A DNA stretch of 35,618 nucleotides, taken from positions 1-35,618 of the forward strand of contig JAHEEN010000012.1 in NCBI GenBank assembly GCA_024640685.1, written 5' to 3'. Positions 9,267-35,011 of the stretch are shown piece after piece. The DNA comes from Rhodospirillaceae bacterium. GTDB lineage: Bacteria; Pseudomonadota; Gammaproteobacteria; Steroidobacterales; Rariloculaceae. The notes beneath the pieces were generated by a model. It was not told the origin of the DNA. It did no database searches and was given only the letters and a program-made list of their open reading frames with translations. The stretch's first letter is position 1, and every line of letters begins with the position of its first letter. A program made the position numbers and the translations under genes.

Positions 9267-9650
9267 ATGAAAGCGCTTTTCCTAACCGTCGTAGGCTCGG
9301 CCTGGCTACTCGCCGCCGCGCCGGCCGCACCGCACCATTCGTTTGCCGCCGAGTTCGACCTGAACCGCCCGATCGCAATTACGGGCACTGTCACGCGCAT
9401 CCAGTGGACGAACCCACATGCCTGGGTTCACGTCGACGTCGAGAATGACGGCAGCGTCGAGAGCTGGGCGATCGAGATGCTCGGCATCAATACGCTGATA
9501 CGGCGAGGCTGGACGCGTGAGACGCTGAGCCCGGGCGATAGGGTCGCCGTCGAAGGCTTCGGCGCGCGAGACGGCAGCACGACCGGCAACGCGTCGAGCG
9601 TCATGTTGGTCGATTCCGGAGAGATGCTCTGGGAGAGCCGCACGCAGTAA
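9267..9650 (+). CDS. DUF6152-type small secreted protein
   Basis: 127 residues. A hydrophobic signal (MKALFLTVVGSAWLLAAAPA) is followed by the family's opening APHHSFAAEFDLNRPIAITGTVTRIQWTNPHAWVHVDVEN. His23-His24 and the His of NPH (His51) are conserved in the two other DUF6152 domains of this window. The fold should be a small beta barrel of the nucleic-acid- or sugar-binding type; its function is not known. Here Pro precedes the HH pair, so signal peptidase probably cuts before Ala21 and leaves A-P-H-H at the N-terminus. The gene is divergent from a GDTLVVE-family gene (8082-9158), an association repeated elsewhere in the window. Confidence 0.85.
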   Translation: MKALFLTVVGSAWLLAAAPAAPHHSFAAEFDLNRPIAITGTVTRIQWTNPHAWVHVDVENDGSVESWAIEMLGINTLIRRGWTRETLSPGDRVAVEGFGARDGSTTGNASSVMLVDSGEMLWESRTQ

Positions 9651-9678: not shown

Positions 9679-10236
9679 CTAAGGGCCGCGGCGGTACGGA
9701 TACTCGGCGAATATTTGCGGCACGACGTCGTCGATGGCCCCCTGAACGTCGCGGCGCGCGGCCTCGGTGACGCGGCCGATCGCAATACCCTCCCAAACCA
9801 GCACGCCGCGCGCGCCGTCGACGAGATCGATATTGAGCGTACCTTCCGTGTATTGGCTGACCTGTCCGTCGTAGTAGCCCCGCCAGCCGATATACATTCC
9901 GTGCCGATAGGCGTAGTAGCCGTAACCGTAGTATGGGTCCGGCAATCGCTCCTGAATTTTTTCCTGTGTATCGACGTAGAAATTCACGAGGAGATCGCCA
10001 CCGTCCTCGATATGGCGATAGCCACGCGCCTGTAGCTCACGGTCGACGGCGCTACGCAAAAACTGCGTCAACAGCGTCGTTGGCCCGCCCGGCTCATCGG
10101 TACCGAGCTGCGCTGTGTAGCTGTAAGTCTCAAAGGCGGAGAAGTCGGCCACGGGACTCTCGGTCGAGTAGATCCTCGGCGTGCTTGCACATGCGGCGAG
10201 AACGCCAGCGACCAATACGACGGCTATCGCTTTCAC
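9679..10236 (-). CDS. DUF4136 lipoprotein
   Basis: 185 residues starting with a GTG at 10236. The N-terminus MKAIAVVLVAGVLAAC has a lipobox (LAAC, Cys16), so the mature protein is lipid-anchored. After it come VADFSAFETYSYT, FLRSAVDRELQARGYRHIEDGGDLLVNFYVDTQEK, a Tyr/Gly-rich stretch YYGYGYYAYRHG, and the ending TLNIDLVDGARGVLVWEGIAIGRV, then AIDDVVPQIFAEYP. These are the standard DUF4136 elements. The role is unknown, probably in the outer membrane or periplasm. The gene converges with the DUF6152 gene, with 28 bases between their ends. Confidence 0.9.
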   Translation of the reverse strand: MKAIAVVLVAGVLAACASTPRIYSTESPVADFSAFETYSYTAQLGTDEPGGPTTLLTQFLRSAVDRELQARGYRHIEDGGDLLVNFYVDTQEKIQERLPDPYYGYGYYAYRHGMYIGWRGYYDGQVSQYTEGTLNIDLVDGARGVLVWEGIAIGRVTEAARRDVQGAIDDVVPQIFAEYPYRRGP

Positions 10237-10337
10237 TGCACCACCATCTCTAGTGAAAGCCAGAACATAGCCAGCCGGTTACCGAATCAGAATCGGGAGA
10301 TTTACCTATCTTAGACGTGGACGATCACAACCCGGCG

Positions 10338-10363
10338 CGATCGACCGTTGTAATAGTCGATCG
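10338..10363 (-). terminator. Hairpin downstream of the NHL gene
   Basis: The arms cgatcgac and gtcgatcg are perfectly complementary over eight bases with a ten-base loop, starting 15 bases after the stop of the 10378-11454 gene on the minus strand. No T-run follows, so it may be an mRNA 3' stabiliser or a weak terminator. Confidence 0.3.
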
Positions 10364-10377
10364 TCGAGCTTGCGTTC

Positions 10378-20758: not shown

Positions 20759-21622
20759 TCATAGCGCGTCGACCGGAATCTTCAGATAGGAAATGCCGTT
20801 CTCTTCCGGTGGCGGCAACCGGCCTGCCCGCATGTTGACTTGCACCGAAGGCAGGACCAATACAGGCATGGCTAACGTCTTGTCACGTGCGTTGCGCATC
20901 TCGACGAACTCCGACTCGGTGACGCCGTCGTGCACATGAACATTGTTCTGAGCCTCGTCGGCTACCGTCGTCTCCCAGGCATACTCGTCCCGGTTCGGCG
21001 CTTTGTAATCGTGACACATGAAAAGCCGCGTCGTCGGTGGCAGTGACAGGACTTTCTTTATTGAACGATACAGCGTCGCCGCATCGCCGCCTGGAAAGTC
21101 GGCACGTGCCGTGCCGTAGTCGGGCATGAACAGCGTATCGCCGACGAATGCAGCGTCACCGAAAACATACGTCAGGCAAGCGGGCGTATGGCCCGGCGTA
21201 TGCATGACGCGGCCCGTCATAGCGCCGACACGAAACTCCTCGCCATCGCCGAACAAGCGATCGAACTGCGAGCCGTCCGTTGCAAACGACGGCTCGACAT
21301 TGAACACCTTGGAGAAAATATCCTGGACGTCCTTGATGTGCTCGCCGATCGCAATCGGCGCGCCGAGCGCGTCTTGCAGATACGGCGCCGCCGTGAGGTG
21401 GTCCGCATGGGCATGCGTCTCGAGAATCCAGTTAACGGTAAGGCCCTGCTCCTTGACGTACGCAAGCACCTGATCGGCCGAGGCGGTGCCTGTACGGCCG
21501 GATTTGGGATCGTAATCCAGTACGGAGTCGATGATCGCGCAGTGAGCTCCATCGGGCTCCGTGACCACGTACGTGACCGTGAAAGTCGCCTGATCGAAGA
21601 ATGCACGGACTTTTGGCTGCAT
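20759..21622 (-). CDS. Persulfide dioxygenase-like MBL-fold protein (ETHE1/Blh type)
   Basis: 287 residues starting at the ATG at 21622. AAGGA lies nine bases upstream of that ATG and directly abuts the earlier ATG at 21631, which is therefore unlikely. The MBL motifs are intact: ETHAHADH (His70, His72, Asp74, His75), HTPGH (141-145), GDTLFMPDYGTARADFPGGDA (Asp162) and CHDY (His204). The DYGTAR.DFPGGDA signature separates ETHE1/Blh-type persulfide dioxygenases from glyoxalase II. Such enzymes oxidise glutathione persulfide to sulfite with a single iron. There is no signal peptide, so it is cytoplasmic. It lies 157 bases after the iorB-like gene, with a palindrome between, so co-transcription is doubtful. 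No BigR- or SQR-like gene is next to it. Confidence 0.88.
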   Translation of the reverse strand: MQPKVRAFFDQATFTVTYVVTEPDGAHCAIIDSVLDYDPKSGRTGTASADQVLAYVKEQGLTVNWILETHAHADHLTAAPYLQDALGAPIAIGEHIKDVQDIFSKVFNVEPSFATDGSQFDRLFGDGEEFRVGAMTGRVMHTPGHTPACLTYVFGDAAFVGDTLFMPDYGTARADFPGGDAATLYRSIKKVLSLPPTTRLFMCHDYKAPNRDEYAWETTVADEAQNNVHVHDGVTESEFVEMRNARDKTLAMPVLVLPSVQVNMRAGRLPPPEENGISYLKIPVDAL

Positions 21623-21718
21623 GGCTTCCATTCCTTAGAAGGGCATGCACCAGATACTATCGCAGAGACAAAGCAGTGCCTGCTTCGGCATTCCGAAAGT
21701 GACGTCGTGGAAACGACA

Positions 21719-21748
21719 ACGGGGTCAGAGCACCGACTCTGACCCCGT
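21719..21748. repeat. REP-like perfect palindrome with 12-bp arms
   Basis: acggggtcagag and ctctgaccccgt are perfect complements around the loop caccga, in the 157-base gap between two minus-strand genes. Just before it lies a small second hairpin (gtcgt-ggaa-acgac, 21703-21716 region). The 'GGGGTCAGAG ... CTCTGACCCC' form resembles REP elements mobilised by IS200-like RAYT transposases in many proteobacteria. It could also act as a terminator for the iorB-like gene, but it has no T-run. Confidence 0.6.
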
Positions 21749-21779
21749 CGAGACGCAAGGAATTTAGCGATTCGCGCCG

Positions 21780-23981
21780 CTAGGCCCAGCTCAAATCGTG
21801 TCTCAACATCGGCGTCGAGCGCACGCGCTTGCCAGTCGCGAAGAAGATCGCATTAGCGACAGCCGGTGGCGTCGGCGGACCGCCGGGCTCACCGCAGCCG
21901 CCCCACCAACCATCCTCGGATAGGGCATAGTGGATCTCGACTTCCGGTGCCTGCGGCATGCGCATCAGGTTGTAGGTATCGAAGTTCGTGTTGACGAAAC
22001 GACCGCCCTGAAGATCCAAGCCGCCGTAGAGCGCATGCGAGAGCTCGTAGACGACTGAGCCTTCGAGCTGCTCGCCCGCGCCACGCGGATTGATGATGTA
22101 ACCGCTGTTGTGCACGAGCACGACTTTCTCGACACGCACTTCACCGCGGCGGCTGACCGATACGGTCGCACACGCGCCGCAGTAGGAATTGTGATCCTCG
22201 GCGACGGCAACACCCATGCCTTGCCCGCGCGGCAGATCGGTCGTGAAGCCAGCGACCTCCTTGAGCTTGAGCAGCACGCGCTGCCAAGGTTCGAGCCCTT
22301 TCGTCATCTCGATGCGCCACTCGAGCGGATCCCAGTCGCCGGCCAATGCGAGCTCGTCGGCAAACTGCTCGATGATGAAGCCGTTCTGATTCGCGCCCGG
22401 CCCCCGGTGCGTCGCCGTCGGGATATGAGCGTGGACGTTATGGCGTTCGTGGCGGCGATTCGGGACTAGGTAAGGCATCGTATTGATGCAGACATCGGCC
22501 GTTGCGGGACCGATCTGCTCGACGCCACCGCGGTTGAACCAAACCGCACGCGAGAAAAACGCCTCGGGCAGACCGTTGTCGCGGAGGGACGCGGTCATCC
22601 GGGTATAGTGCGGTGGCCGCTGCTGGTCCTGCGTGATGTCTTCCTCGCGGGGCCAGACGACCTTGGTCGGGCGACCGACCTGCTTGGCGATTTCAGCCGC
22701 CTGCCGCGTCACGGCCGTGAAGCCGCCACCGTTGCCGCCGAACGCGCCGCCTATAAATACCGTGTTGACGTAGACGTCACGCGTGTCGCGGCCGAGCTGA
22801 TCGGCGACGACCTTGAGCGCCGCCGCCTGATCCTGCACCGGCGACCAAACGTCGACGCGATCCTCGTAGATCGCAACGGTCGCATTGATCGGCTCCATGC
22901 GCGCATGCGTCTCATACGGCCGATGATAGTCGGCACTTACGACACGGTCGGCCGGCGCGGCTGCCAGCAGATCTCGCGCATCGGCGCCAACTTCGCCACT
23001 GACCTCGCCGTCCTCTTCGAGCATCTGCGCTGCTTGCGCAGCCAACGTCTCGTTACTGACGCTGCCCTCGGGGCCGAAGTCCCACTCGACCGGCATCAAA
23101 TCCAGCGCGGTCTTCGCGCGATACCACGAATCGGCGACGACCGCGACGCCGTTTTGCATCGCATCGCGCGTGTTCGTGATCCCGGGCACCGCCTTGAGCT
23201 CGACGGCTGCGACTACGCCGGGACGGTCGCGCACTTGGTCGAAGTCGAAGCTCGCGAGACGCCCCCACGGCACGGGACAACATTTAACGGCCGCGTAGAC
23301 CATGCCGTCGAGTCGCGTGTCGATCGCGTAATGCGCGCTGCCGTTGACTTTGACCGGCACGTCGAGGCGATCGGTCGGAGTGCCGAGCAACCACCACTCG
23401 TCGGGGTTCTTCTTGATCGCCGGCTCCTCGGCCAGCATGATCGAGCCTGCTTCGGCAGCGAACTCCGCGTACGGCGCCGATCGACCGTTGGCGCTCAATA
23501 CGCCCTGACGCGCCGTGACTTGCGAGCGGTCGATGCCCCACGCACGCGCTGCCGCTTCCTTCAAGCGCTCACGCGCCGATGCACCGGCTTGCATGATGTG
23601 CGGATGCTGCAGCCGCACGAGCTGCGAGCCGTGCGTCGTCGTGACGATATATTCCTCGCCGTCGTTGACATGGCGATTCATGTCCGCGAAGACCGTCTGG
23701 ATGCGATCCCACGGCACGTCGAGCTCCTCGGCGACGAGCATCGCGACCGACGTCAGCGCACCCTGCCCTTGCTCGGTGTGCGGCACGCGAATCGTCACGA
23801 TGCCATCGGCATCGATTGCGAGCCACGCGTTGACCTCGACGCCGTCCGTCGGCGTCGTCCAAGGCCTGGGGGCTACGACCGCGGCGAGCGCCCCGGGCAT
23901 CTGAAAGCCGATGATCATGCCGCCCGCTGCCGACATCGAGCGGATGAGTGTGCGACGCGTCAGCATCATGTCCATTTCCAT
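21780..23981 (-). CDS. iorB: Molybdopterin-binding subunit of a periplasmic oxidoreductase (IorB-like), copy 1
   Basis: 733 residues, the usual IorB length. A Tat signal (LTRRTLIRSM, Arg9-Arg10) is followed by AAGGMIIGFQMP. AGGAGG eight bases upstream supports the ATG at 23981. Motifs in order: VNAWLAIDADGIVTIRVPHTEQGQGALTSVAMLVAEEL, a central aldehyde-oxidase domain from about 210, HARMEPINATV, FIGGAFGGNGGGF, HIPTATHRGPGANQN, and GGCGEPGGPPTPPAVANAIFFATG with the catalytic Glu698. It hydroxylates an aldehyde or N-heteroaromatic compound by the xanthine-oxidase mechanism. It works with the 2Fe-2S subunit encoded 15 bases upstream and is exported bound to it. There is no FAD subunit, so electrons should go to a cytochrome. 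The substrate is unknown. Confidence 0.92.
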   Translation of the reverse strand: MEMDMMLTRRTLIRSMSAAGGMIIGFQMPGALAAVVAPRPWTTPTDGVEVNAWLAIDADGIVTIRVPHTEQGQGALTSVAMLVAEELDVPWDRIQTVFADMNRHVNDGEEYIVTTTHGSQLVRLQHPHIMQAGASARERLKEAAARAWGIDRSQVTARQGVLSANGRSAPYAEFAAEAGSIMLAEEPAIKKNPDEWWLLGTPTDRLDVPVKVNGSAHYAIDTRLDGMVYAAVKCCPVPWGRLASFDFDQVRDRPGVVAAVELKAVPGITNTRDAMQNGVAVVADSWYRAKTALDLMPVEWDFGPEGSVSNETLAAQAAQMLEEDGEVSGEVGADARDLLAAAPADRVVSADYHRPYETHARMEPINATVAIYEDRVDVWSPVQDQAAALKVVADQLGRDTRDVYVNTVFIGGAFGGNGGGFTAVTRQAAEIAKQVGRPTKVVWPREEDITQDQQRPPHYTRMTASLRDNGLPEAFFSRAVWFNRGGVEQIGPATADVCINTMPYLVPNRRHERHNVHAHIPTATHRGPGANQNGFIIEQFADELALAGDWDPLEWRIEMTKGLEPWQRVLLKLKEVAGFTTDLPRGQGMGVAVAEDHNSYCGACATVSVSRRGEVRVEKVVLVHNSGYIINPRGAGEQLEGSVVYELSHALYGGLDLQGGRFVNTNFDTYNLMRMPQAPEVEIHYALSEDGWWGGCGEPGGPPTPPAVANAIFFATGKRVRSTPMLRHDLSWA

Positions 23982-23996
23982 CGTCTCGGCCTCCTA

Positions 23997-24458
23997 TTAA
24001 GAATGTGCGAGCTCGGCTGCACGATGGATGGCTGCGCGAATCCGCGAGTACGTGCCGCAGCGACACAGATTGCCGGCCATGGCCGCGTCGATCTCCGCAT
24101 CGCTCGGATTCGGGTTGCGCGACAATAACGCCGCCGCTGCCATGATTTGGCCCGACTGACAGTAACCGCATTGCGGCACGGTATTCTCGACCCACGCGCG
24201 CTGCAGCGGGTGGCTCGAGTCCGGCGACAAGCCCTCGATCGTCGTGATCTCTCGACCGACCGCGGCCGAGGCCGGCGTGCTGCAGGATCGTACGGGCTGA
24301 CCGTCGAGGTGCACGGTGCACGCACCGCACTGGGCGATACCGCAACCGAACTTCGTGCCGGTCAATCCGATCGTGTCGCGCAACACCCACAGCAGTGGCG
24401 TCTCCGGCTCGACGTCGATCTCGTGATTCGTGCCGTTAATCGTCAGCGTGAAGGCCAT
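23997..24458 (-). CDS. iorA: 2Fe-2S subunit of a molybdenum oxidoreductase (IorA-like), copy 1
   Basis: 153 residues. The plant-ferredoxin-type cluster motif is [19 protein letters not shown] with Cys39, Cys44, Cys47 and Cys59. The second cluster motif is [11 protein letters not shown] (Cys97, Cys100) with LCRCGTY (Cys132, Cys134). These are all eight Cys ligands for the two 2Fe-2S clusters of the xanthine-oxidase family. It passes electrons from the molybdenum site outward. It has no signal peptide and would be co-exported by the Tat signal on its partner. It lies 15 bases before the partner gene, with a 284-base region upstream that may hold their promoter. Confidence 0.95.
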
Positions 24459-24742
24459 AGGGACTGTCCTCGTTCATCCGTTGGGTCGCGGCCCCGGACC
24501 CTAGCGATGTGTATTCCCTGCTTGGGCCGACTCGATCCGTGTGCGTGCGCGCACTGAAGCTGCAGAGAACTCGCAAATGGTCACACAAAGTGGCGTCGTT
24601 GTCACCGCCGGCGAAAGAATTTCTGACAGAATCAATGAGTTGCAAAGACGTGACGGCGATTCCGGCGAGCATCCGACGAACCACCGCTGCGTGGGTCGAG
24701 ATGATGTCAAACGTGACACGCGGGCGTCAGCAATTGGCGTGG
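24459..24742. other. 284-base intergenic region before the first iorAB pair
   Basis: This is the longest gap without a clear gene. It separates the CmcJ-like gene from the iorA/iorB pair, all on the minus strand. A possible -35 TTGCAA with 17-base spacing to a weak -10 AAATTC is present on the minus strand near 24620-24650. Short frames inside it have no recognisable domain and I do not call them. Confidence 0.35.
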
Positions 24743-25543
24743 TCAAGCAAAGAAGGCGAACAGCCGTGTCTCCATCGACTCGCGCGGCGGAAGCACCGAG
24801 CCATTTCCCGAAACTTCGAATGACGTGTGGACGCACCACCGCGCTCGGCCGTCGGTCCGAGAATCGTAGGTTTTTATCAGCAAGACCTCATCGACAGCCA
24901 TCTCCGGAAAATAAATCCAGCGTTGCCCAGCGGCGTAGCGGACGAGATAGATCTCACCGATGCGGCCCTTGCCGCGACGTTCGGTGGCGACGAGCGATTC
25001 CGGACTCAGACTCTGCGCATCACAGACTGCAAGCGGTGACGTTTGTACGGTTGCGATCGGCCGCCAGACATTGACGATCGCGAATTCGCGGCTCGCTAGC
25101 GCCTCGGCCTCACCGCCCATCAGATCGTTGATGCGCTTGAGCGCCGATCGCGGCGTGTAGTCGTTGTGAATGAAGGCCGACGGCTCACGACTCGTATGCT
25201 GCTCTCGAACGTCCGCGGCGCTAGCCCGCCACGTATGGTCGAATATCTCGACGCGCTCTGCTGCCGTCGCCTCGGTCACGAGTGCGCGGCACTGCGCATC
25301 GTGGCGCGTCGCGACGATGTCGCGATCGTAGAGATCACCGACAGGCGCCAACCGACGCAGCGCGAAGCCGTGCACGTCCAAATCGAATGTCTCATCGAGG
25401 CCGCGTCCGTCGAGGACCTCGACGGCACGATCCTCGTAGTCGCCGATCAGCGTCGAATGCGCGGCCGCGCCTCCGGTCGATGGACCGAAGACCGGCTCGC
25501 GGCTGTCGGGGGCTAAAAACCTCAAGCTTGCGAGTACTGTCAT
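24743..25543 (-). CDS. CmcJ/NvfI-family oxygenase-like protein
   Basis: 266 residues, close to the family's normal length. The start VLASLRFLAPDSREPVFGPSTGG, the segment DLDVHGFALRRL (about 54-65), and FIHNDYTPRSALKRINDL carrying an HxD motif (His126, Asp128) fit the CmcJ/NvfI/AsaB group. So do FAIVNVWRPI (about 154-163), SLSPESLVATERR and WCVHTSFEV (His239). Characterised members include fungal Fe(II)/2-oxoglutarate oxygenases of meroterpenoid and gibberellin metabolism and CmcJ of cephamycin synthesis. The HxD...H triad suggests an iron enzyme. There is no signal peptide, so it is cytoplasmic. It is the last gene of a tight minus-strand run, 52 bases after a DUF6644-like gene. The substrate is unknown, and the start lacks a clear Shine-Dalgarno. 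Confidence 0.82.
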   Translation of the reverse strand: MTVLASLRFLAPDSREPVFGPSTGGAAAHSTLIGDYEDRAVEVLDGRGLDETFDLDVHGFALRRLAPVGDLYDRDIVATRHDAQCRALVTEATAAERVEIFDHTWRASAADVREQHTSREPSAFIHNDYTPRSALKRINDLMGGEAEALASREFAIVNVWRPIATVQTSPLAVCDAQSLSPESLVATERRGKGRIGEIYLVRYAAGQRWIYFPEMAVDEVLLIKTYDSRTDGRARWCVHTSFEVSGNGSVLPPRESMETRLFAFFA

Positions 25544-25595
25544 CGTTTCTGTTTGGTCGATGCTGGCGACGGCAACCAGGATACCCGCAATCGAC

Positions 25596-26066
25596 TCAAG
25601 GAAAGCCGATCAACCGGCCACAGAGCGCAATCGTGACCCACAGCGTAACGGACAAAGCTGCGACAACCTTCGCGTGCTGCGAGATCCCATGCTCACACAC
25701 GTCTGCAATCACCCGGTGACGCATCGTGAACGTGAACACGAGCGCAACCAGTAATGCCGCGACCTTGATCCAGAACGCGCTGAGATAGTAATACTTCGTC
25801 GCAAAGCACATGAACAGCAGCACGCCGGTTGGCAGCATCACGCAAATACTTCCAATCAGCCATGGCTGCGCGGCTCGGCCGATTGCAGCCGGCGATTGAT
25901 CCGTCAGGCCCAAGCCGAGCAACCTGAGGTCGACGACGAGCACCGCGCCGCCGAGCATCGCGAGCCCGAGCAGATGAACGCTTGCAATTGCAGGGAACAA
26001 CCACGGCGAAGCGCGCATCGCGACGAGCGGCGCGGAGTACTGCAGGGCCTCGAATAACGCGAGCAT
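25596..26066 (-). CDS. DUF6644-like membrane protein, copy 1
   Basis: 156 residues with four predicted membrane helices (about 22-40, 68-88, 97-115, 130-150). It shares the frame H-x(14)-VDLRLLGL near residues 31-52 with its neighbour, which gives the family resemblance: PWLFPAIASVHLLGLAMLGGAVLVVDLRLLGLGL. His31 and His117 (RHR) lie in or next to helices and could bind heme, but this is speculation. It lies 10 bases after the second copy and 52 bases before the CmcJ-like gene. The family assignment is from memory of the pattern and its function is unknown. Confidence 0.7.
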   Translation of the reverse strand: MLALFEALQYSAPLVAMRASPWLFPAIASVHLLGLAMLGGAVLVVDLRLLGLGLTDQSPAAIGRAAQPWLIGSICVMLPTGVLLFMCFATKYYYLSAFWIKVAALLVALVFTFTMRHRVIADVCEHGISQHAKVVAALSVTLWVTIALCGRLIGFP

Positions 26067-26076
26067 GTCGTGGTCG

Positions 26077-26577
26077 TCAGAACCAGTAACGTTCGTAAGG
26101 AATCATTCGGCCGGCGACGATAATCGCGGCCCAAATTGCAAGCCCGATGCCGCCGGCAATCCGCACCGGCGCCGGCGGCGCAGCGTCGCGATCCCAGTTC
26201 GCCACTTGCCGAAACAGCGTTCGATGGAAAATCACGACATTAGCGGCTGCCGAGAGCAGCAGCACAAGCTTCAATCGAAAAAAGACGCTCGCGGCCCGCT
26301 CGACGGGCGCGGCATAGAACAACAACGAGCCCGACGCGATCATGACGGCGATCCCGCCGGCCGCCCACGGCACGAGCCGTGGGATCAGCTGCGATGCCGG
26401 CACGCGCGACAGCATCAAGCCGAGCAAACGCAGGTCGATGACAGCCGCCATTCCTGCGAACACGAACAGCGTCAGGACATGAACAGTCAGGACACCGAGG
26501 AATACGTAGTGTGACTCGCGTAACGCGACGCTGCCCGGCGTCGACGCAAGCCATTCGAGAAGGCCCAACAGCGACAT
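26077..26577 (-). CDS. DUF6644-like membrane protein, copy 2
   Basis: 166 residues and four hydrophobic helices. ESHYVFLGVLTVHVLTLFVFAGMAAVIDLRLLGLMLSRVP (about 21-60) aligns with its neighbour over the same His (His33) and the xDLRLLGL stretch. PWAAGGIAVMIASGSLLFY and VIFHRTLF (His118) also correspond. The tandem pair probably arose by duplication and may form a heterodimer in the inner membrane. The neighbours include secreted DUF6152 and GDTLVVET proteins and a c-type cytochrome, so a part in electron transfer or export is possible. Confidence 0.7.
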   Translation of the reverse strand: MSLLGLLEWLASTPGSVALRESHYVFLGVLTVHVLTLFVFAGMAAVIDLRLLGLMLSRVPASQLIPRLVPWAAGGIAVMIASGSLLFYAAPVERAASVFFRLKLVLLLSAAANVVIFHRTLFRQVANWDRDAAPPAPVRIAGGIGLAIWAAIIVAGRMIPYERYWF

Positions 26578-26636
26578 CGCGCGCGCGTCGCGATCAGCTC
26601 ACGCGCACGCGGTGTCGAGACGACAGTCGAGGCGGA

Positions 26637-27065
26637 CTAACGCCGGCCCGGCGTCGGGTTGCCGTCGGCCCCAGGCGCCGAGCCACCCATGAAGACCTTG
26701 CGCCCGTCGAGATACTCGAAAAACACACCGACGCCCTTGTTCTCACCGCTCTTGGCTTGGTAGCCGAAGACTTTGATCTCCGAGCCAACCGGCAGGCTGT
26801 CCTTCGTCAGGCCGTTGCGGAACAAGTTGACCGGCGGACCGCCCTCCATGCCCCAGTTCGTGACCGTGCCGTCTTCGTTCTCGACGTCGATCCAAACCCA
26901 CGAATGCGGATTGACGAGCTCGACGCGCGTGACGACGCCCTCCAGGTTTAAAGGCTTGCTCTCATCGAACGCGGCAGCGAACGAGTGATGAGCGACGACC
27001 GGCCTACCCAACATGACGACGGCAGCGGCAAGTGCGAACGTGGCAACTGTCTTCAATTTACGCAT
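26637..27065 (-). CDS. DUF6152-type small secreted protein
   Basis: 142 residues from the ATG at 27065, which is preceded by AGGGAGAGAG and begins a signal peptide (MRKLKTVATFALAAAVVMLGRPVVA). The longer frame to 27179 is not supported. Signal peptidase should cut right before His26-His27, giving a mature protein that begins HHSFAAAFD, then LNLEGVVTRVELVNPHSWVWIDVENEDG. The NPH His is at 54. An N-terminal His after cleavage is what copper 'histidine brace' proteins have. The C-terminus (GKVFMGGSAP... type tail) is flexible. It lies 31 bases after a GDTLVVET-family gene and is probably co-transcribed with it. Confidence 0.85.
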   Translation of the reverse strand: MRKLKTVATFALAAAVVMLGRPVVAHHSFAAAFDESKPLNLEGVVTRVELVNPHSWVWIDVENEDGTVTNWGMEGGPPVNLFRNGLTKDSLPVGSEIKVFGYQAKSGENKGVGVFFEYLDGRKVFMGGSAPGADGNPTPGRR

Positions 27066-27096
27066 CAGTCTCTCTCCCTGTCTCTCTAACAGGCGC

Positions 27097-28227
27097 TCAG
27101 TCTTGCGACTGAGCCTCGTATTCCTCGGCCCGTATCTGCGCACCCCTGACAACATTGATGATGCCGTAGTTGTGCTCATGACAAGCCCACTCGTAAATGC
27201 CCGGCGGAACCATCTCGGGCCAAATTATTTCATACGTCCACGGCGCTTCCCATGTCGTCGGATCGGTCAGCGTCGCTCGATAGACGATCGTATCGTCGCC
27301 GGCGCGCGTCAAGCGCTCGACGAGATGCACGTCGCCTGCAGCGCCGCGGGGGCGCACCCAGGTTCGATTCTCATCGAAGTTGCTCGTTTCGATGACGAGC
27401 GTGTCGCCTTCGAAGTGACCTCGCGATATACCCAGCCATGCGCGCACGCTAGGGGGCGGCATCGGGCGGCCGTCGAGCGGAATCACACGGACGTCGTTAT
27501 TGCTCTGCATGATCAGCATGACGTAGTCCCGTGTCTGCACGATCCGCGACTCGCCGATCTGCTGAATGAACGGCACCCGCGGCGGGCCTTCGGAACCGAC
27601 GATGCAGCGCTCGGTCGGGTGGCGCGACTGCAGCGTTTCGCGCCGCGCCTGCTCGTCCCAGCGTACCCGGCCGGCAGCCGTCAACGGCGGGATCCTGCCG
27701 TCGGGCGGATCGATGATCAGCGACGTGCGCCGCGTCGGCCGAATCGGGCTCTGCCAGTTGTCCATGCCGAACTCGGTCCAGTCATAGTGCACGGTCGCCG
27801 GATCGACGGACGCATCCGTCAGCACGGCCGTCTGGAATGCCTCGATGGCCTCTTGAACCGAGTACAGCGGCTTGCCGGCGAGCTCGCGCGGCCGTTCGAG
27901 CGGCGTGTACGTCGCGCTGATCCACGAACCGCGCAAGTCCGGATCGCCCCAAGGGGTGCGCGGTGCCGGCTCGGGCGTGCGCTCGGGATCCCAGACGCGC
28001 TCGACGGCGCGCGCTAGCGCGGCATCGACATCTTCTTCGAAATACGCGAACGTCTCTTCGGAGTCGCGCAGCGATGCCGCGCGCGCTGCTTCCAACGTCG
28101 CTGTCTCACCCTGATTGATGAGCGCCGACGGCGGCGGCTCCGGCTGAGCCCATGCGACATCGTAAACGCCCAGCATCGCGGCGACCGATACCGCCATCGC
28201 GCCGCTCTTGAATGTCTTTCTACGCAT
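27097..28227 (-). CDS. Secreted 'GDTLVIET' family protein, function unknown
   Basis: 376 residues from the ATG at 28227, which has GGAGGT seven bases upstream; the frame continues to 28251 without support. The signal peptide ends near VAWA-QPEPP. Then come a helical acidic region (DVDAALARAVERVW), PWGDPDLRGSWISATY (around 93-108), RCIVGSEGPPRVPF, RIVQTRDYVMLIMQSNNDVRVIPLDGRPMPPPSVRAWLGISRGHFEGDTLVIETSNFDENRTW, VHLVERLTR and TLTDPTTWEAPWTYEIIW. This is the same core as in the 8082-9158 and 28248-29129 proteins. Near the end CHEHNYG holds a Cys/His cluster that could bind metal. It is likely periplasmic, in the middle of a tight minus-strand operon. Confidence 0.75.
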   Translation of the reverse strand: MRRKTFKSGAMAVSVAAMLGVYDVAWAQPEPPPSALINQGETATLEAARAASLRDSEETFAYFEEDVDAALARAVERVWDPERTPEPAPRTPWGDPDLRGSWISATYTPLERPRELAGKPLYSVQEAIEAFQTAVLTDASVDPATVHYDWTEFGMDNWQSPIRPTRRTSLIIDPPDGRIPPLTAAGRVRWDEQARRETLQSRHPTERCIVGSEGPPRVPFIQQIGESRIVQTRDYVMLIMQSNNDVRVIPLDGRPMPPPSVRAWLGISRGHFEGDTLVIETSNFDENRTWVRPRGAAGDVHLVERLTRAGDDTIVYRATLTDPTTWEAPWTYEIIWPEMVPPGIYEWACHEHNYGIINVVRGAQIRAEEYEAQSQD

Positions 28228-28247
28228 CGATCTCACCTCCGACGCGG

Positions 28248-29129
28248 TCAATCGTCGCCCATGAGCCCAAGCGGGCCGTACATAAGCTGTTCGACGAACG
28301 GCACGCAGTTGAACTCGACGAGCTGCGCGCTCGGGTCGACATTCTTATAGAGCGTAAATGACATCTTCCACGGGCGCGTGAAGACGTTCGGGTCCTCGAT
28401 CGTCGCCTCGTAATGCATGTGATAGGGGCTCAGCGGCGTCCAACGCTCGACGACGTGCAGCGCGTCGCTGTGAAAATTCCCGGCGCGATCGAACCACGTA
28501 TAGCCGTTGAAACCGGAGACGTCGACGACGAGCGTGTCGCCGTCCCAGCGCCCGTTCGACCATCCCATCCACGTATAGCCGGGCGACTCGGAATCCGAGT
28601 CCATGAAGATCTCGCGATAGGCGCCCTTGTACTCGTAGACGATGAAGACCTCTTCGGGCGTCTGGATAATCTGGAACGGGAACGGCATGTAGTTCGCGCG
28701 CGGCACGCCGGCGCGGAAACACTGCATCTCCGGATCGCCGGTGTCGAAACGGCTCGGGTCGTTCGCGACCTTGACGACGGTGCGGTTTGCAAAGTTCTCT
28801 CGCTGTTTCTCCGCGGCCCAAGGCTGGTACGGGATCTCATTGCCCTCGACGATCCCTAAGCCGCCGCGCGCCGCGGCCCAGGCGCCGAGCACTTCCGAGT
28901 ACGGCCCGGCCTCCGACGAATGCGCGAGGATGTTCCAGTTGGCTGTCGTGAACGACTGCCAGATACCACTGAGATCCGGCCGACCCTCCGGCGTTCGCGG
29001 AATCGCCGCGCGGAACGAATCGGGGATCTCTTGGGCGACGGCTGGCGGCAGCGACAGCAGGACAGTGACGGCAGCCACAGCGATGGCGACCGTGCCGACG
29101 TTGAATGAGCGACGAATCCTCAAAGCCAT
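28248..29129 (-). CDS. Secreted 'LSGIW ... GDTLVVDV' family protein, function unknown
   Basis: 293 residues with a signal peptide (hydrophobic about 12-30, cleaved near AVA-QE) and GGGGGT before the ATG at 29129. The core is the most typical of the four in the window: RTPEGRPDLSGIWQS (about 45-60), EMQCFRAGVPRANYMPFPFQIIQTPEEVFIVYEYKGAYREIFMD, GWSNGRWDGDTLVVDVSGFNGYTWFDRAG, FHSDALHVVERW and EATIEDPNVFTRPWKMSF. It ends after a Cys-containing LVEFNCVPF segment. No enzyme activity is known to me. It lies 20 bases before its paralogue and 142 bases after the cytochrome gene. Confidence 0.78.
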   Translation of the reverse strand: MALRIRRSFNVGTVAIAVAAVTVLLSLPPAVAQEIPDSFRAAIPRTPEGRPDLSGIWQSFTTANWNILAHSSEAGPYSEVLGAWAAARGGLGIVEGNEIPYQPWAAEKQRENFANRTVVKVANDPSRFDTGDPEMQCFRAGVPRANYMPFPFQIIQTPEEVFIVYEYKGAYREIFMDSDSESPGYTWMGWSNGRWDGDTLVVDVSGFNGYTWFDRAGNFHSDALHVVERWTPLSPYHMHYEATIEDPNVFTRPWKMSFTLYKNVDPSAQLVEFNCVPFVEQLMYGPLGLMGDD

Positions 29130-29271
29130 GCTACCCCCACGGACGATCCCGGAAGTCGGCTTTCCTTAGTCGATCTCGATTCCGCAAAACGGCGGGAACG
29201 CTCCGGTGCCCGCGATCCGCTCAACTCTGTCACACCGAATCCGCGAGTGTCAACGCGCCGACGGGCCCCGA

Positions 29272-31011
29272 TCAGTAGTCGAGCACACGGCCGTCGACCG
29301 GGTTCAGGCCACCGTGAAAGTTACCCTGGTCCCGGACGACGCGGGACTCGCCGTTCTCGTCGTAATGGACCCAGATCAGCCCGTGCGCGTCGCCGTTCTC
29401 GGGCATGTCGATCTTCGTCAACAATTCCTTAGTCGCGGCGTCGTAGACGTAGATCCGGCCCTCGCCGTTGCTCGTCGCCCACATTTCCTTGCCGTTCGGC
29501 GACAGCAATACATGGTCGACCTTGTAGGCGCCGTAGAGCGTCTCGACCGCGTGACCTTCGTGGGTGTCGATGACCGTGATCGTGCGGCCGAGGTGATGTG
29601 CAGCCTCGCCCTTGTCGGCAACCCAGAGCTCGCTCTCATCGGCGTTCAGCGACGCGCCGTAAGGCCCGATGCCTGTGCCATTCGTCCAGACGACCTCACC
29701 GCTGTCGATCGCAATCTTCGACGCGTTCGACATCGAGTTGACGACGTACATGTACTCCTTCGCGGAATCGACAATCAGCCAATTCGGCCGATAGCCTGGC
29801 AGCGGATACTCCTGCTCGACCTCCCAGGTATCCGGGTTGATCTTCGCAACCCAAAACGGCCGCATCGCGAGCAGTCGGCCTTGATACATGTTGATCGCCG
29901 CCGTCATGCCGGTGCTGCGGCCGGACGCATAGCCGGCGGGCTCCATCAGCGCGTAGATGTGCTCGTAGTCCTTGTCGGACCAGACCGTATAGACGTAGCC
30001 GCCGAGGTCGGCATCCCGGATTCCGCCGACGATCTCGTCGGTCTCGGGATCGAGCAGCGCGAACCCGAGGCCGTCGGGATCGCGCGCGAAGTAATCGATT
30101 AGCACATAGTCGCGGAATACCTGGCCGTGGTGCAGCCGCCCGCCGATCGCAATCTGCTTGATCGGCTGCAGCGTCAACGCGTCGGCCTTGATCAGCGTCG
30201 CCGACGTGCCGAGATTCGTCGTCGTGTCGATATCGCCGCCGGGACGCGCGCCGATGATGTACGCGTAGCGGCCGTCCGGCGACATCGCCGACGTATGCAC
30301 GACCGCGCGCAGCTGCACTGGCAGCATGTAGCTTGCAATGACCTCGCGCGTCTCGGCATCGCCGACGACGATCTGGTTGCTCTCGGGCAGCTTGTAACCC
30401 TCGAATAGCACCGATGGCGAGCTCGTCGTGCCGACGTTCTCGTAGAAATAGGTCCTACCGGGTTCCGGCGTGAACTTCGGCTCGCCCGGATCGAACGTCG
30501 CAACGACTTCCGTTTGATAATGACTGAGCAGGCTGCCTTCGTTCGCGCGCCGCGTCCAATTGGCCGCAAGATCCTCGTAGCGCTCGATGCCCTCGACCTG
30601 CAAGTCGCGCGGCGTCTTCGCAAACTCGAAATCCCGCGCCGAGTTTGCCTTGATGATCGCGAGATTGGCCAACCAACGATCCGGCAACGCCGCATCGAGC
30701 GACAATCCAGCGAGACTGCGTATATACATCGAGATTGCCGCGAGATCCTCGTCGCTGGGATTCATTTCGCTGACGATGACACCCATGACGGGGTTGCTCT
30801 CGAGCTGATCGAAGATGTCCACGGGCGTCGGGCCAAAGTGCAGGCTCGGGCCAACAAGGCCTTCGCCGGTCGCGCCGTGACAGGTATGGCAGCCGACAGC
30901 GGAGTTGAAGAGCTCGCCGCCGCGGGCGACGAGCGTATCGATATCTTGTGCGAATGCGTTGTCGCACATGAGCGAGGTAGCCGCTAATACGCCGACGATA
31001 GACTGTTTCAT
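29272..31011 (-). CDS. Secreted cytochrome c fused to a beta-propeller
   Basis: 579 residues from the ATG at 31011, placed after GGAG and opening a signal peptide (MKQSIVGVLAATSLMCDNAFA). The longer frame to 31074 overlaps the iorB-like gene and is rejected. CHTCH (Cys41-Cys44-His45) binds one heme c; VSEMNPSDEDLAAISMYIRSL supplies the Met ligand and the C-terminal cytochrome helix. Residues about 150-579 form a YVTN/cytochrome-d1-like propeller with blades such as SAMSPDGRYAYIIGARPGG, GYRPNWLIVDSAKEYMYVVNSMSN and VLLSPNGKEMWATSNGEGRIYVYD. The layout resembles cd1-type proteins, but whether heme d1 or another cofactor binds is unknown. It follows the second iorAB pair by 55 bases and is a natural electron acceptor for it. 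Confidence 0.85.
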   Translation of the reverse strand: MKQSIVGVLAATSLMCDNAFAQDIDTLVARGGELFNSAVGCHTCHGATGEGLVGPSLHFGPTPVDIFDQLESNPVMGVIVSEMNPSDEDLAAISMYIRSLAGLSLDAALPDRWLANLAIIKANSARDFEFAKTPRDLQVEGIERYEDLAANWTRRANEGSLLSHYQTEVVATFDPGEPKFTPEPGRTYFYENVGTTSSPSVLFEGYKLPESNQIVVGDAETREVIASYMLPVQLRAVVHTSAMSPDGRYAYIIGARPGGDIDTTTNLGTSATLIKADALTLQPIKQIAIGGRLHHGQVFRDYVLIDYFARDPDGLGFALLDPETDEIVGGIRDADLGGYVYTVWSDKDYEHIYALMEPAGYASGRSTGMTAAINMYQGRLLAMRPFWVAKINPDTWEVEQEYPLPGYRPNWLIVDSAKEYMYVVNSMSNASKIAIDSGEVVWTNGTGIGPYGASLNADESELWVADKGEAAHHLGRTITVIDTHEGHAVETLYGAYKVDHVLLSPNGKEMWATSNGEGRIYVYDAATKELLTKIDMPENGDAHGLIWVHYDENGESRVVRDQGNFHGGLNPVDGRVLDY

Positions 31012-31066
31012 TCCGACGTTCTCCAATAGGTTGCTGCCCATTTCCGGGGTCTTTTCCTGGACCGGC

Positions 31067-33352
31067 TCATGCACGGGGCGCGCCTGGTTCTCGGGCTGTC
31101 AAAGCCGTAAGCACGCGATCGGGCGTCATTGGCAGCTCGCGCATTCTGACGCCGGTCGCCGCAAACAGTGCATTCGCAACGGCCGCGCCAGTCGTCGCAA
31201 GACCGAGCTCGCCGATGCCGCTCGGCGGGCGAGTATTCGTCAGCGCTCTGACCTCGACCTCGGGCACCTCATTCATGCGCATGACTTGGTAGTCGTAGAA
31301 GTTCGACTGCTCGACGACGCCACCGTTGACGGTGATCCGCTCCTTGAGCGCGTTGCTGAGCCCGTAAATGATCGTCCCTTCCATCTGCGCCTCGGTGTTA
31401 CGCGGCGACAAAATGAATCCGGCATCGATCGCCATCCAGAAGCGGTGCACGCGGACAACGCCGGTCGTCTCGTCGACGGAAATCTCGGCGACGCCCGCAG
31501 ACACCGACGAGCCGCCGTAGTCCGATAGCGCAACGCCGAGCCAGCGACCGTCGCGGGGCTCTGACCAATTCGCCATGCGGCCGACTTCCTCGAGCACGGC
31601 GCGGCCTTCCGGATTCTCGCGCGCGAGATCGATGCGGAACTCAAGCGGATCGGCCCCGAGCGTATGCGCCAGCTCGTCCATGAACGACTCGTTGGCGAAG
31701 CGGGTATAGCTCGTCGCGACACCCCGCCACGGCGCGAGCCGCGAGCAGCGGTCGACGATCACGTGCTCGGCGCGGACGTTCGGGATCGCATAGCGCGTCG
31801 TCTGCGCACCATTCATCGCAATGCCGTCGCGGCCCTGGGCATGCGCCCAGCGCGGCTCGTTCATGTAGCCGAGCACCGTCGGCGTTGCGACACGCTGCTC
31901 CAAGCCTGTGATGTTGCCGTCGGCATCGAGCGCCGCGCGCAGGTACTGCGCGGCGAGTGGTCGAAACGCGCCGTCCTTGACGTCGTCCTCGCGGCTCCAG
32001 ATGACCTTGACGGGCTTGCCGACAGCGCGTGAAACGAACAGCGCATCGTCGACATACTTTTGGCGGTATTCGGTACGACGGCCATAGCCGCCACCGATGT
32101 ACATCGGATGCATCGCTATCTTCTCGGGCGTCGTCTCGAGCGCCTCGGCCGAGCCGAGCACGGTCAGGCTCTGCGTCTGCGTGCTGACCCAAATTTCCGC
32201 GGATTTGCCGTCCTCCGAGACGCTCGCCGTTGCGTTCATCGGCTCCATCTGCGCGTGGTACGCGGGATCGGTCCGGTACGTGGCCTCGATGACGCGTTCA
32301 GCATTGGCGAATGCCGTGTCGACGTCGCCCTTCTCCTGCCACAGCGGATTGTCGGTGTGAAAATCGAGATCCCGGGCACGCGCCTCGTAGTCGTCGAGGT
32401 CGCGCGCATGGTCGGTCGCACGGAATCGCGAGCTCTCGCTCCATGTCACGTCGAGCGCAGCCTTTCCCCAGATCGTCGCCTCGACAGTCTCGCCGACGAC
32501 GGCCACGCCGTAAGGCAGGGTGACGACATCGGTGACGCCGTCGATCGCGCGCGCGGCCGCATCGTCGACAGCGACTGGCGACTCGCCTTCGACCGGCGTG
32601 CGAAGAATCGACGCATAAACCATACCCGGCACCTGGACATCGATGCCGTACTCGGCCGAGCCGTTGGTCTTCGCCGGCACGTCCAGACGCGTGAGGTCCT
32701 TGCCGAGATATCGAAACTCGTCGTGCGACTTGAACTCGCTCTCGTCGACCTCGGGCAGGTACTCGGGGACTTTGGCGCGCGCGACGATCTCGCCATAGCT
32801 TGCCGACTGGCCTGACGCGCCATGCACGACCCGGCTCGGCTCGGTCGAGAGCTCCGCGACCGGCACGCCCCATTGCTCCGCGGCGGAGTCGAGCAAGAAC
32901 TTGCGCGCCTGAGCGCCGGCCTGGCGCATCGGCGTGAAATAGCCGCGCACCGTCGCGCTGCCCGCCGTGTACAAGATCGGATAGCCGAGGTCGCGGGAGC
33001 GCGCTGGATTGCCGTAAACGGGATTGTGCTCGGCCACCGTCTCGACGCGAACGTCGTCCCAGTCGGCGTCAAGCTCCTCGGCGAGGGCGAGCGGCACCGA
33101 CGTCATCGAGCCCTGGCCCATTTCCGTGCCGCCGAACTGAATCGTTATTGTGCCGTCAGCCGCAAGGCTGACCCACGCGTTTGGCGAGATCGCAGCGTCC
33201 GGCGCGCTAGCCAACGGTAGCCCGTCATCGCCGGGTTCCAGACCGCACGCGCCGACGATGCCCGTCGCACCGACGACGAAGGTGACGCCGACGCCCTGCA
33301 GGAATTCGCGGCGGGTCGGCCGGGTTTTGCCGAGCGTTCGTTCGCGCGTCAT
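31067..33352 (-). CDS. iorB: Molybdopterin-binding subunit of a periplasmic oxidoreductase (IorB-like), copy 2
   Basis: 761 residues. The Tat signal PTRREFLQGVGVTFVV (Arg14-Arg15) ends near a Cys (GACGLEPG), and GGAGG six bases upstream fixes the ATG at 33352. Motifs: NAWVSLAADGTITIQFGGTEMGQGSMTSVPLALAEEL, YHAQMEPMNATASV, MYIGGGYGRRTEYRQ (molybdopterin region), SRLAPWRGVATSY and GIGELGLATTGAAVANALFAATG with the probable catalytic Glu715. The last motif departs from the usual GE.G.PP..PA..NA seen in copy 1. It is co-expressed with its 2Fe-2S subunit (one base apart) and with the cytochrome-propeller downstream. It oxidises an unknown aldehyde or heteroaromatic substrate in the periplasm. The Cys in GACG could be a lipobox if the Tat signal is a lipoprotein type. 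Confidence 0.92.
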   Translation of the reverse strand: MTRERTLGKTRPTRREFLQGVGVTFVVGATGIVGACGLEPGDDGLPLASAPDAAISPNAWVSLAADGTITIQFGGTEMGQGSMTSVPLALAEELDADWDDVRVETVAEHNPVYGNPARSRDLGYPILYTAGSATVRGYFTPMRQAGAQARKFLLDSAAEQWGVPVAELSTEPSRVVHGASGQSASYGEIVARAKVPEYLPEVDESEFKSHDEFRYLGKDLTRLDVPAKTNGSAEYGIDVQVPGMVYASILRTPVEGESPVAVDDAAARAIDGVTDVVTLPYGVAVVGETVEATIWGKAALDVTWSESSRFRATDHARDLDDYEARARDLDFHTDNPLWQEKGDVDTAFANAERVIEATYRTDPAYHAQMEPMNATASVSEDGKSAEIWVSTQTQSLTVLGSAEALETTPEKIAMHPMYIGGGYGRRTEYRQKYVDDALFVSRAVGKPVKVIWSREDDVKDGAFRPLAAQYLRAALDADGNITGLEQRVATPTVLGYMNEPRWAHAQGRDGIAMNGAQTTRYAIPNVRAEHVIVDRCSRLAPWRGVATSYTRFANESFMDELAHTLGADPLEFRIDLARENPEGRAVLEEVGRMANWSEPRDGRWLGVALSDYGGSSVSAGVAEISVDETTGVVRVHRFWMAIDAGFILSPRNTEAQMEGTIIYGLSNALKERITVNGGVVEQSNFYDYQVMRMNEVPEVEVRALTNTRPPSGIGELGLATTGAAVANALFAATGVRMRELPMTPDRVLTALTAREPGAPRA

Positions 33353-33353
33353 G

Positions 33354-33806
33354 TCAGACCTCCTGCGCCGCGCGCTCGATGGCCCGGACGATGCGGCTGT
33401 ACGTGCCGCAGCGACAAATGTTCGTGCTCATATGAGCGACGATCTCATCTCGGGTCGGCTGTGGATTCATCGCGAGCAGATTGGCCGCGCGCATGATCTG
33501 ACCGGACTGGCAGTAGCCGCACTGCGGTACCTCCTCGGCGATCCAAGCCTGCTGCAGCGGATGCTCGCCGGTCTCGGACAAGCCCTCGATCGTCGTTATT
33601 TCACGGCCCTCGACATCGGCGACACGCGTTCGGCACGAGAACGCCGTCTGCCCGTCGACATGGACCATGCAGGCACCGCATTGGCCGACACCGCAGCCGA
33701 ACTTCGTGCCCGTCAGCTTCAGGTGTTCGCGTATGACCCAAAGCAATGGCGCATCGGGATGTGCGTCGACGTCGACGTCGCGCCCGTTGATCGTGAACGT
33801 CGCCAT
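33354..33806 (-). CDS. iorA: 2Fe-2S subunit of a molybdenum oxidoreductase (IorA-like), copy 2
   Basis: 150 residues from the ATG at 33806 (GGGGGA just upstream); the frame extends four codons to a TTG at 33818. The eight cluster Cys are present: FGCGVGQCGAC (Cys38, 43, 46), Cys58, [11 protein letters not shown] (Cys96, 99) and ICRCGTY (Cys131, 133). The stop is followed after one base by the ATG of the molybdopterin subunit, so the two are translated together. It is first in the minus-strand run that reaches to 24743, and it is divergent from the DUF6152 fusion gene at 34007. Confidence 0.95.
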   Translation of the reverse strand: MATFTINGRDVDVDAHPDAPLLWVIREHLKLTGTKFGCGVGQCGACMVHVDGQTAFSCRTRVADVEGREITTIEGLSETGEHPLQQAWIAEEVPQCGYCQSGQIMRAANLLAMNPQPTRDEIVAHMSTNICRCGTYSRIVRAIERAAQEV

Positions 33807-34006: not shown

Positions 34007-35011
34007 ATGACGTATAGATCCGGTCTGCTCGGCGGTATTGCGCTGGTGAGCTCAGCCAGCGCGTTCGCGCACCACGGTTCCGCACCGTTCGACACGCGCC
34101 GCACGGTGACGCTGGAAGGCACGATCACGCGCTTCGATTATCGCAACCCGCACGGCTTTCTCTATGTTCGCAGTCGCGACGACGCCGGCAATCCGGTCGA
34201 CGTCACGGTGGAGACCGTCGGATCGTCACTGCGCCCGTGGGGGTTCACGCCGGAGTCACTGAGCGCCGGCGAGGAAGTGATTCTCGTCATGAACCCGAGT
34301 CGCCGCTCGCCGAACGAGTGGGGTCTCGGCGTCGAAGTCATCAAGGACGACGGCACGATCGTGCCGCTGTCGGTTCGATTTGCCCGTGAGCTCGAGCAGC
34401 GCAGCACCGGCCACGCGACGACTCTAGCGGGTCTGTGGGTGCCCCGCGGCGAGGATTTCTTCCGCTTCGTATTCTCGCGCTCGTCTCTGGCGCTGACGTC
34501 CGCAGGCGCCCAAGCCAACGAGGCGTTCGACATGAAAGACTCGCCGCAGGCGCACTGCGAAGCGATCCCACCGCCGACGCTAATGTTGTACGGCTCGATC
34601 GATGAGATCGAGATTCTCGACGATCGCGTGTTGATCCACAGCGACTGGCTCGACGGCGAGCGCGTGATCTATACCGACGGACGGACCGTAACTGCCGACG
34701 CCACGCCAGAGCTCAATGGGATCTCTGTCGGACGCTGGGAGGACGGCGAGCTGAACGTCGAGACGACGCATTTCACCGTCAACAACTCGGGCATCATGCA
34801 AGGCGTTCCATCGGGACCGCAGAAGCGCTTGTCAGAGCGCTTCGAGCTCATCGACGACGGCGCGGCATTGCGTTACAGCTACGAGCTCGAAGACCCCGAG
34901 TACTTGCTCGAAGCGATCGTCGGCGAGAGCCGCTGGGACTATCGCCCGGACCTGACGCCTGATCCTGTGCCATGCGACACGGACTCTGCCGGGCGCTATC
35001 TCGACGAGTGA
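34007..35011 (+). CDS. DUF6152 domain fused to a 'GELNVETTHF' (GDTLVVET-family) domain, secreted
   Basis: 334 residues with GGGAG before the ATG. The signal peptide is MTYRSGLLGGIALVSSASAFA; cleavage before His22 exposes HHGSAPFDTRRTVTLEGTITRFDYRNPHGFLYV, a DUF6152 domain (His22, His23, NPH His49). Residues about 120-334 hold the second family: TTLAGLWVPRG, AHCEAIPPPTLMLYG, RVIYTDGRTVTADATPELNGISVGRWEDGELNVETTHFTVN, KRLSERFELIDDGAALRYSYELEDPEYL and WDYRPDLTPDPVPCDTD. These match the core of the proteins at 8082, 27097 and 28248. It is therefore a natural fusion of two families otherwise encoded by adjacent genes here. It is likely periplasmic and its function is unknown. Confidence 0.8.
   Translation: MTYRSGLLGGIALVSSASAFAHHGSAPFDTRRTVTLEGTITRFDYRNPHGFLYVRSRDDAGNPVDVTVETVGSSLRPWGFTPESLSAGEEVILVMNPSRRSPNEWGLGVEVIKDDGTIVPLSVRFARELEQRSTGHATTLAGLWVPRGEDFFRFVFSRSSLALTSAGAQANEAFDMKDSPQAHCEAIPPPTLMLYGSIDEIEILDDRVLIHSDWLDGERVIYTDGRTVTADATPELNGISVGRWEDGELNVETTHFTVNNSGIMQGVPSGPQKRLSERFELIDDGAALRYSYELEDPEYLLEAIVGESRWDYRPDLTPDPVPCDTDSAGRYLDE

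Follow-up and report, generated by a model that had tools for sequence, protein, structure and literature searches.

Gene content of the locus

The analyzed window is a stretch of 35,618 nucleotides, one contig of the 3.49-Mb draft genome of an uncultured gammaproteobacterium. Gene calls over the window place 12 genes, all on the minus strand, between positions 33806 and 20759. Starting from position 33806, they encode IorA1, IorB1, a cytochrome c-beta-propeller protein, GDT1, GDT2, DUF6152, DUF6644a, DUF6644b, a CmcJ-like protein, IorA2, IorB2, and an MBL-fold hydrolase, and the intergenic gaps in the same order are 1, 58, 142, 20, 31, 59, 10, 52, 284, 15, and 148 bases. Thus, the co-directional minus-strand block with mostly short gaps that had been described in an initial annotation is confirmed. 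The gene families named there, among them one DUF6152 and two DUF6644 proteins that are recognized by Pfam, are correct by profile matches, which also name two further genes, encoding a CmcJ/NvfI-family protein and a persulfide-dioxygenase-like hydrolase.

The central part of the block consists of five genes. GDT1 (28248..29129) encodes a secreted protein of the GDTLVV family with a predicted calycin-like beta barrel, and GDT2 (27097..28227) encodes a second protein of this family, homologous to GDT1 (E 6e-13). Next is the DUF6152 gene (26637..27065; PF19649, E 2e-30), whose product has a signal peptide, the predicted mature N-terminus HHSFAAAFD, and conserved NPH, W, and E positions. The last two genes, DUF6644a (26077..26577; PF20349) and DUF6644b (25596..26066; PF20349, E 2e-23), encode membrane proteins with four transmembrane segments each.

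Both GDT and DUF6152 occur elsewhere in the window as well. A gene on the plus strand (34007..35011) encodes a DUF6152-GDT fusion, in which the N-terminal DUF6152 part (PF19649, residues 15-100) has the predicted cleavage site AFA|HHG and is followed by a GDT-like domain; direct comparison of this domain with GDT1 is weak, and the two are linked via homologues that match both. Similar fusions are located directly downstream of DUF6644b in three related loci (L119, L120, and L126). A further DUF6152 gene on the plus strand (9267..9650; PF19649, 111 bits) and the minus-strand gene for GDT3 (8082..9158; GDT profile, 256 bits), the product of which has a C-terminal DUF3471-like part (E 6e-4), form a second, divergent GDT/DUF6152 pair.

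The promoter scan of the window yielded no promoter-like site, and the terminator scan yielded four terminator-like sites only, fewer than in shuffled sequences; because of these outcomes, both scans are uninformative on transcription units. No PADLOC match indicated membership in a defense system.

The conserved gene set

The five genes GDT1-GDT2-DUF6152-DUF6644a-DUF6644b are found in the same order and orientation, and without IorAB, in nine other genomes of the same bacterial family (L119-L126 and L129). A related arrangement is provided by four loci on Novosphingobium plasmids, where a DUF6644 pair has both DUF6152 and GDT within 5 kb. Three of the Novosphingobium plasmid loci also contain, near the DUF6644 pair, a gene for a small protein with a single CxxCH motif (L199, positions 9975-10409; L200; L204); the L199 protein had no Pfam match.

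To describe the linkage on a wider scale, we used 399 evenly drawn Pseudomonadota genomes. Occurrence in this sample is nested: the genomes with GDT (12) lie within those with DUF6644 (29), which in turn lie within those with DUF6152 (42). The hypergeometric probabilities, 2e-34 for DUF6644 within DUF6152 and 2e-15 for GDT within DUF6644, are descriptive and ignore shared ancestry. Here, a DUF6152-DUF6644 unit is defined by both genes lying within 4 kb of each other, as they do in the window (26637-27065 and 25596-26577). Such proximity is observed in 27 of the 29 genomes with DUF6644, counting that of the window, and a distance of at most 300 bases in 19 of 28, with the window's genome excluded. 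Eight more genomes, which by Pfam contain DUF6152 only, proved to have an adjoining DUF6644 gene when a locally built profile was applied. Thus, DUF6152-DUF6644 is the conserved unit, as demonstrated by linkage, nesting, and gene order.

The family-centered sample has tandem DUF6644 genes in 32 of its 40 units; elsewhere, they are present in 4/4 and 10/37 units. The units with doubled DUF6644 are in GDT-carrying genomes, whereas nearly all others have a single copy. Therefore, two forms of the unit can be distinguished: a minimal one, consisting of DUF6152 and one DUF6644, and an elaborate one, consisting of GDT, DUF6152, and two DUF6644 genes. By the gene maps and the neighbors among the loci listed, the minimal pairs have no third gene in common, and neither a copper gene nor a regulator is conserved beside them.

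The window's genome contains at least 70 DUF6152 genes (139 first-look candidates) and at least 43 GDT genes (154 first-look candidates), and the probability that a random 13-kb stretch of it includes a DUF6152 gene is about 0.23-0.41. Because the genome holds so many copies, mere nearness to DUF6152 or GDT is weak evidence of association; the fixed order of five genes is not. In this genome and its relatives, the counts reach at least 70 DUF6152 and 43 GDT genes, with up to 192 and 202 first-look candidates, yet almost no other family of the order has either of them.

Sequence features of the conserved proteins

Among 126 distinct DUF6152 proteins, 119 passed a strict search for two adjacent histidines directly after the signal-peptide cleavage site predicted by the -3/-1 rule, in six the corresponding position reads AHHN, AHHP, or AHHT, and the remaining one is fragmentary and lacks the N-terminus. 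The His-His pair is therefore present in all 125 proteins with a readable N-terminus. In 117 of these 119 proteins, A, G, or S precedes the pair at position -1, and residue -3 is small or aliphatic (A/V/S/T/I/L) in all. A predicted mature N-terminal histidine, as in copper proteins of the histidine-brace type, is thus a constant feature of the family. His51, which is a part of the NPH/PPH motif, Trp68, and Glu70 are also highly conserved and are candidates for further copper ligands, as judged from the alignment. The initial annotation had supposed that the uncharacterized families bind substrate, cofactor, or metal, or relay electrons; of these options, the sequence features suggest metal binding.

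The DUF6152 proteins have weak Pfam matches to OB-fold models. Identity with CopC was considered and rejected, as no CopC match was found among 48 members and the hhalign probability for YobA is 2.5%. In the fusions with GDT, DUF6152 occupies the N-terminal part. Several DUF6152 proteins of minimal units have, by eye, Tat-like signal peptides with twin arginines (L258, L266, L267, L272, and L292), and others look like Sec substrates.

The AlphaFold model of DUF6644b (pLDDT 95.6) has four long helices. Across 58 family-centered and 47 phylum-wide DUF6644 sequences, four residues never vary (H31, G81, K101, and R151), and charge counts (the positive-inside rule) place them near the periplasmic side. 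The structure search of DUF6644 yielded no significant PDB match. Weak Pfam matches are to DUF2214 (14 of 58 proteins, best E 2e-6) and CopD (3 of 58, best E 1e-4); for CopD (PF05425), the best match (E 1.3e-4, 22.8 bits) is below the cut-off of 32.1 bits.

Profile-profile comparison by hhalign gave E values of 0.0042 for DUF6644 with CopD and 0.0025 for DUF6644 with HemJ, at probabilities of 8-12%; the controls gave 0.013-0.17 with reversed profiles and at best 0.015-0.064 with shuffled ones. The comparison of CopD with HemJ gave 0.001, both alignments having been found with the CopD model. The alignment used here as HemJ (A6) is presumed to represent this family from its sequence motif. DUF6644 shows a HemJ-like pattern of invariant residues, H-17-R and G-about 20-K. 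The similarity stays under the curated cut-offs and suggests that DUF6644, CopD, and HemJ may be of common descent.

For the GDT proteins, neither Pfam nor NCBIfam contains a matching model. The AlphaFold model of GDT1 (pLDDT 84) is a beta barrel, and its best PDB folds are retinol- and fatty-acid-binding barrels, with E 1.8e-3 and a TM-score of 0.28 by query length. The family further shows a GxW motif resembling that of lipocalins, and two of its cysteines are invariant.

Possible functions of the DUF6152-DUF6644 unit

In CopC and in DUF1775 (YcnI), the N-terminal histidine binds Cu(II), and both are encoded beside CopD (PMC8424229, PMC12362106). The layout of the DUF6152-DUF6644 unit is the same, with unrelated or very distant proteins, and for this reason a CopC/CopD-like role in copper binding is our first choice; by this analogy and the sequence features, we consider the chances about even that the two proteins form such a pair. 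Signal-peptide cleavage would expose His-His at the mature N-terminus of secreted DUF6152, which most likely would bind Cu(II) by these residues together with His51 and/or Glu70 and Trp68, as a histidine brace or mono-histidine brace. DUF6152 might then hand the metal to, or be served by, DUF6644, a predicted four-helix protein of the CopD/DUF2214/HemJ-like class with His31, Gly81, Lys101, and Arg151 near the periplasmic face. In the family of the window, the unit would have been enlarged by doubling of DUF6644, addition of the predicted calycin-like GDT barrels, which may bind a ligand, and expansion of DUF6152 and GDT, with dozens of copies or more in each genome.

Similarity to CopC-CopD and YcnJ-YcnI (YobA-YebZ in E. 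coli) includes a small secreted protein with a mature N-terminal histidine, encoded beside a polytopic membrane protein, and the weak similarity of DUF6644 to CopD. The copper site of YcnI consists of the N-terminal histidine, a glutamate, and a nearby tryptophan (PMC8424229), and DUF6152 likewise has an N-terminal histidine, a tryptophan, and a glutamate. However, DUF6152 falls outside both CopC and DUF1775 by profile and starts with two histidines, and DUF6644 is short, has four helices, and stays below the CopD cut-off. Several observations also argue against a copper pair. A copper chaperone would not be expected in dozens of copies per genome, the minimal pairs have no conserved copper gene or regulator beside them, and the small CxxCH proteins of the three Novosphingobium loci would fit a redox role better.

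DUF6152 and DUF6644, two Pfam families without an assigned function and without any mention in the open literature as searched in full text (5.39 million papers), are tied together across a phylum. The proposed pair has a sharp, testable chemical signature: removal of the signal peptide would free His-His, and the membrane partner contains a site with four invariant residues (His, Gly, Lys, and Arg). It is also striking how many DUF6152 and GDT genes a single bacterial family has per genome, which raises the question of why the cells need them all.

The main rival of the copper reading, possible rather than probable, is a haem-b relay. Here, the two DUF6644 proteins would share one haem b, each contributing one histidine as in SdhC/SdhD, or each would bind haem like HemJ, and electrons would pass between quinone and periplasmic partners, that is, DUF6152, small cytochromes, and sometimes IorAB. 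It owes this rank to the resemblance of DUF6644 to HemJ, the doubling of DUF6644 in tandem, and the presence of small proteins with a CxxCH motif near three Novosphingobium units. The reference list of PMC7133116 characterizes HemJ as a b-type haem protein. DUF6644 is a small membrane protein of similar length, in which the H, R, G, and K residues line up with those of HemJ, the family that also gave the best hhalign score. In contrast to HemJ, DUF6644 is tied to DUF6152 and its invariant site is apparently periplasmic; HemJ-like genes are separate in related genomes. The single invariant histidine per subunit, combined with the frequent doubling of DUF6644, is consistent with two paralogous subunits that could each supply one haem ligand, as in the SdhC/SdhD anchor, from which the pair differs by having no conserved dehydrogenase partner. 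One DUF6644 pair directly precedes IorAB (L149). However, in most units across the phylum DUF6644 is single and has no cytochrome in its vicinity, and a haem relay leaves the N-terminal His-His of DUF6152 without a reason.

Handling of envelope ligands is an unlikely alternative, in which GDT barrels would bind lipophilic molecules, DUF6152 and DUF6644 would dock or move them, and the paralogues would differ in ligand. The similarity of the GDT1 model to retinol- and fatty-acid-binding barrels, the lipocalin-like GxW motif, the large expansions of paralogues, and the location of TonB-dependent receptors or catabolic genes close to some copies agree with this scenario, but the fold match is marginal by both E-value (2e-3) and TM-score, and in most genomes the unit has no GDT at all.

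We regard a further scenario as rather unlikely. The DUF6152 proteins would then have an OB-like fold and represent a new N-terminal-histidine copper protein family, expanded in these uncultured Gammaproteobacteria to dozens of genes or more in each genome, and, together with GDT barrels presenting lipophilic substrates and a DUF6644 pair feeding electrons, they would constitute a periplasmic copper oxidase or oxygenase and not a chaperone.

Flanking genes and the composite nature of the block

The conserved unit in the window is surrounded by genes of other families. Outside the window, the 5-kb surroundings of 81 DUF6644 units contain DUF6152 in 62 cases, GDT in 28, and IorB in one, and in no case the cytochrome-propeller, CmcJ, or hydrolase gene. 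The initial annotation had combined the IorAB pairs, the secreted cytochrome, and the uncharacterized families into one periplasmic oxidation module and had proposed a comparison of gene neighborhoods across genomes as a check. The part of this proposal that concerns GDT, DUF6152, and DUF6644 holds, as these genes recur together in the family, on the Novosphingobium plasmids, and across Pseudomonadota; the part in which IorAB drives the oxidation does not recur, and on the neighborhood counts we reject a module built around IorAB. The only other DUF6644 pair with IorAB close to it, at 300 bases, is in a genome of the same genus (L149, G001:C153).

A single oxidation module in which both IorAB pairs and the cytochrome-propeller act with the GDT and DUF proteins is thus very improbable: the co-directional arrangement of 12 genes with mostly short gaps, the kinship of the IorB proteins, which have no FAD subunit, to a structurally solved aldehyde dehydrogenase, and the L149 pair favor it, but they stand against the single occurrence of IorB near other DUF6644 units and the differing contexts of the relatives of each flanking gene. 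The 13-kb block is composite and not a conserved module, because the relatives of IorAB1, IorAB2, CmcJ, and the cytochrome-propeller are located in separate neighborhoods, even within the genus. It is best explained by assuming that independent units came together, by chance or recently, around a single conserved one.

Both IorAB pairs consist of a [2Fe-2S] subunit, IorA1 (33354..33806) or IorA2 (23997..24458), each matching PF01799/PF00111, and a large molybdenum hydroxylase subunit, IorB1 (31067..33352) or IorB2 (21780..23981), each matching PF02738/PF20256. With Tat-type N-termini of the two IorB proteins (TRREFLQG and TRRTLIRS), molybdenum-cofactor domains, a separate [2Fe-2S] subunit, and no FAD subunit, they are Tat-exported, FAD-less periplasmic hydroxylases of the IorAB type, as had been claimed initially. 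Among solved structures, IorB1 is closest to an aldehyde dehydrogenase large subunit (8gy3_C, E 6e-86), to which it is homologous over the full length and with which it shares the Tat signal and the separate [2Fe-2S] subunit; the type found in the window differs by having no conserved cytochrome partner beside IorAB. Judged by IorB1 (69% identity), Candidatus Rariloculus versatilis is a near relative of the organism. None of 80 named IorB1 loci has DUF6644 nearby, which rejects IorAB1 as a marker of the five-gene set, and GDT or DUF6152 is found in three of the 80, several kilobases off. Orthologues of IorB2 with 76-82% identity are present in four genomes (G001, G002, G017, and G020), including two of the genus of the window, and each of them has a different gene context.

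The CmcJ/NvfI-family oxidoreductase (24743..25543) matches NF041278 with 246 bits at a cut-off of 80. In the sister species G001 (L172, G001:C172), the CmcJ gene is divergent from, and directly beside, a MetE-like gene. In the window, 10 kb separate these two genes, as would fit if other genes had been inserted there. The MBL-fold hydrolase (20759..21631) matches NF040641 (Blh) with 418 bits at a cut-off of 625 and over profile positions 139-423 only. It thus resembles the dioxygenase half of Blh, a persulfide dioxygenase, and is not assigned as a full Blh sulfur transferase/dioxygenase.

The gene at 29272..31008 encodes the secreted cytochrome noted initially, with a Sec-type signal, one CxxCH motif, and a propeller, and probably is outside the conserved set. 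Among 28 homologues, CxxCH40-44, M75, and six propeller histidines (H238, H293, H294, H499, H542, and H565) are invariant. The search of 349 further genomes from the class gave no match at E 1e-20, so that within the class this protein family is confined to the bacterial family of the window, where it has up to 14 copies per genome. It is possible that it represents a copper enzyme limited to one bacterial family. Assignment as N2O reductase or thiocyanate dehydrogenase was rejected, as no such solved chain matched at E up to 1. The nearest relatives are not beside IorAB; a role as general electron acceptor of IorAB was also rejected, given the restriction to one family and the usual location elsewhere. 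It is plausible that IorA1, IorB1, and the cytochrome-propeller form an operon in the window's genome alone (gaps of 1 and 58 bases), an arrangement not seen elsewhere. In four other loci (L143, L177, L178, and L196), the cytochrome-propeller gene is followed by a gene of the SCO1/SenC family, in three of them together with a gene for a DsbD-type membrane protein.
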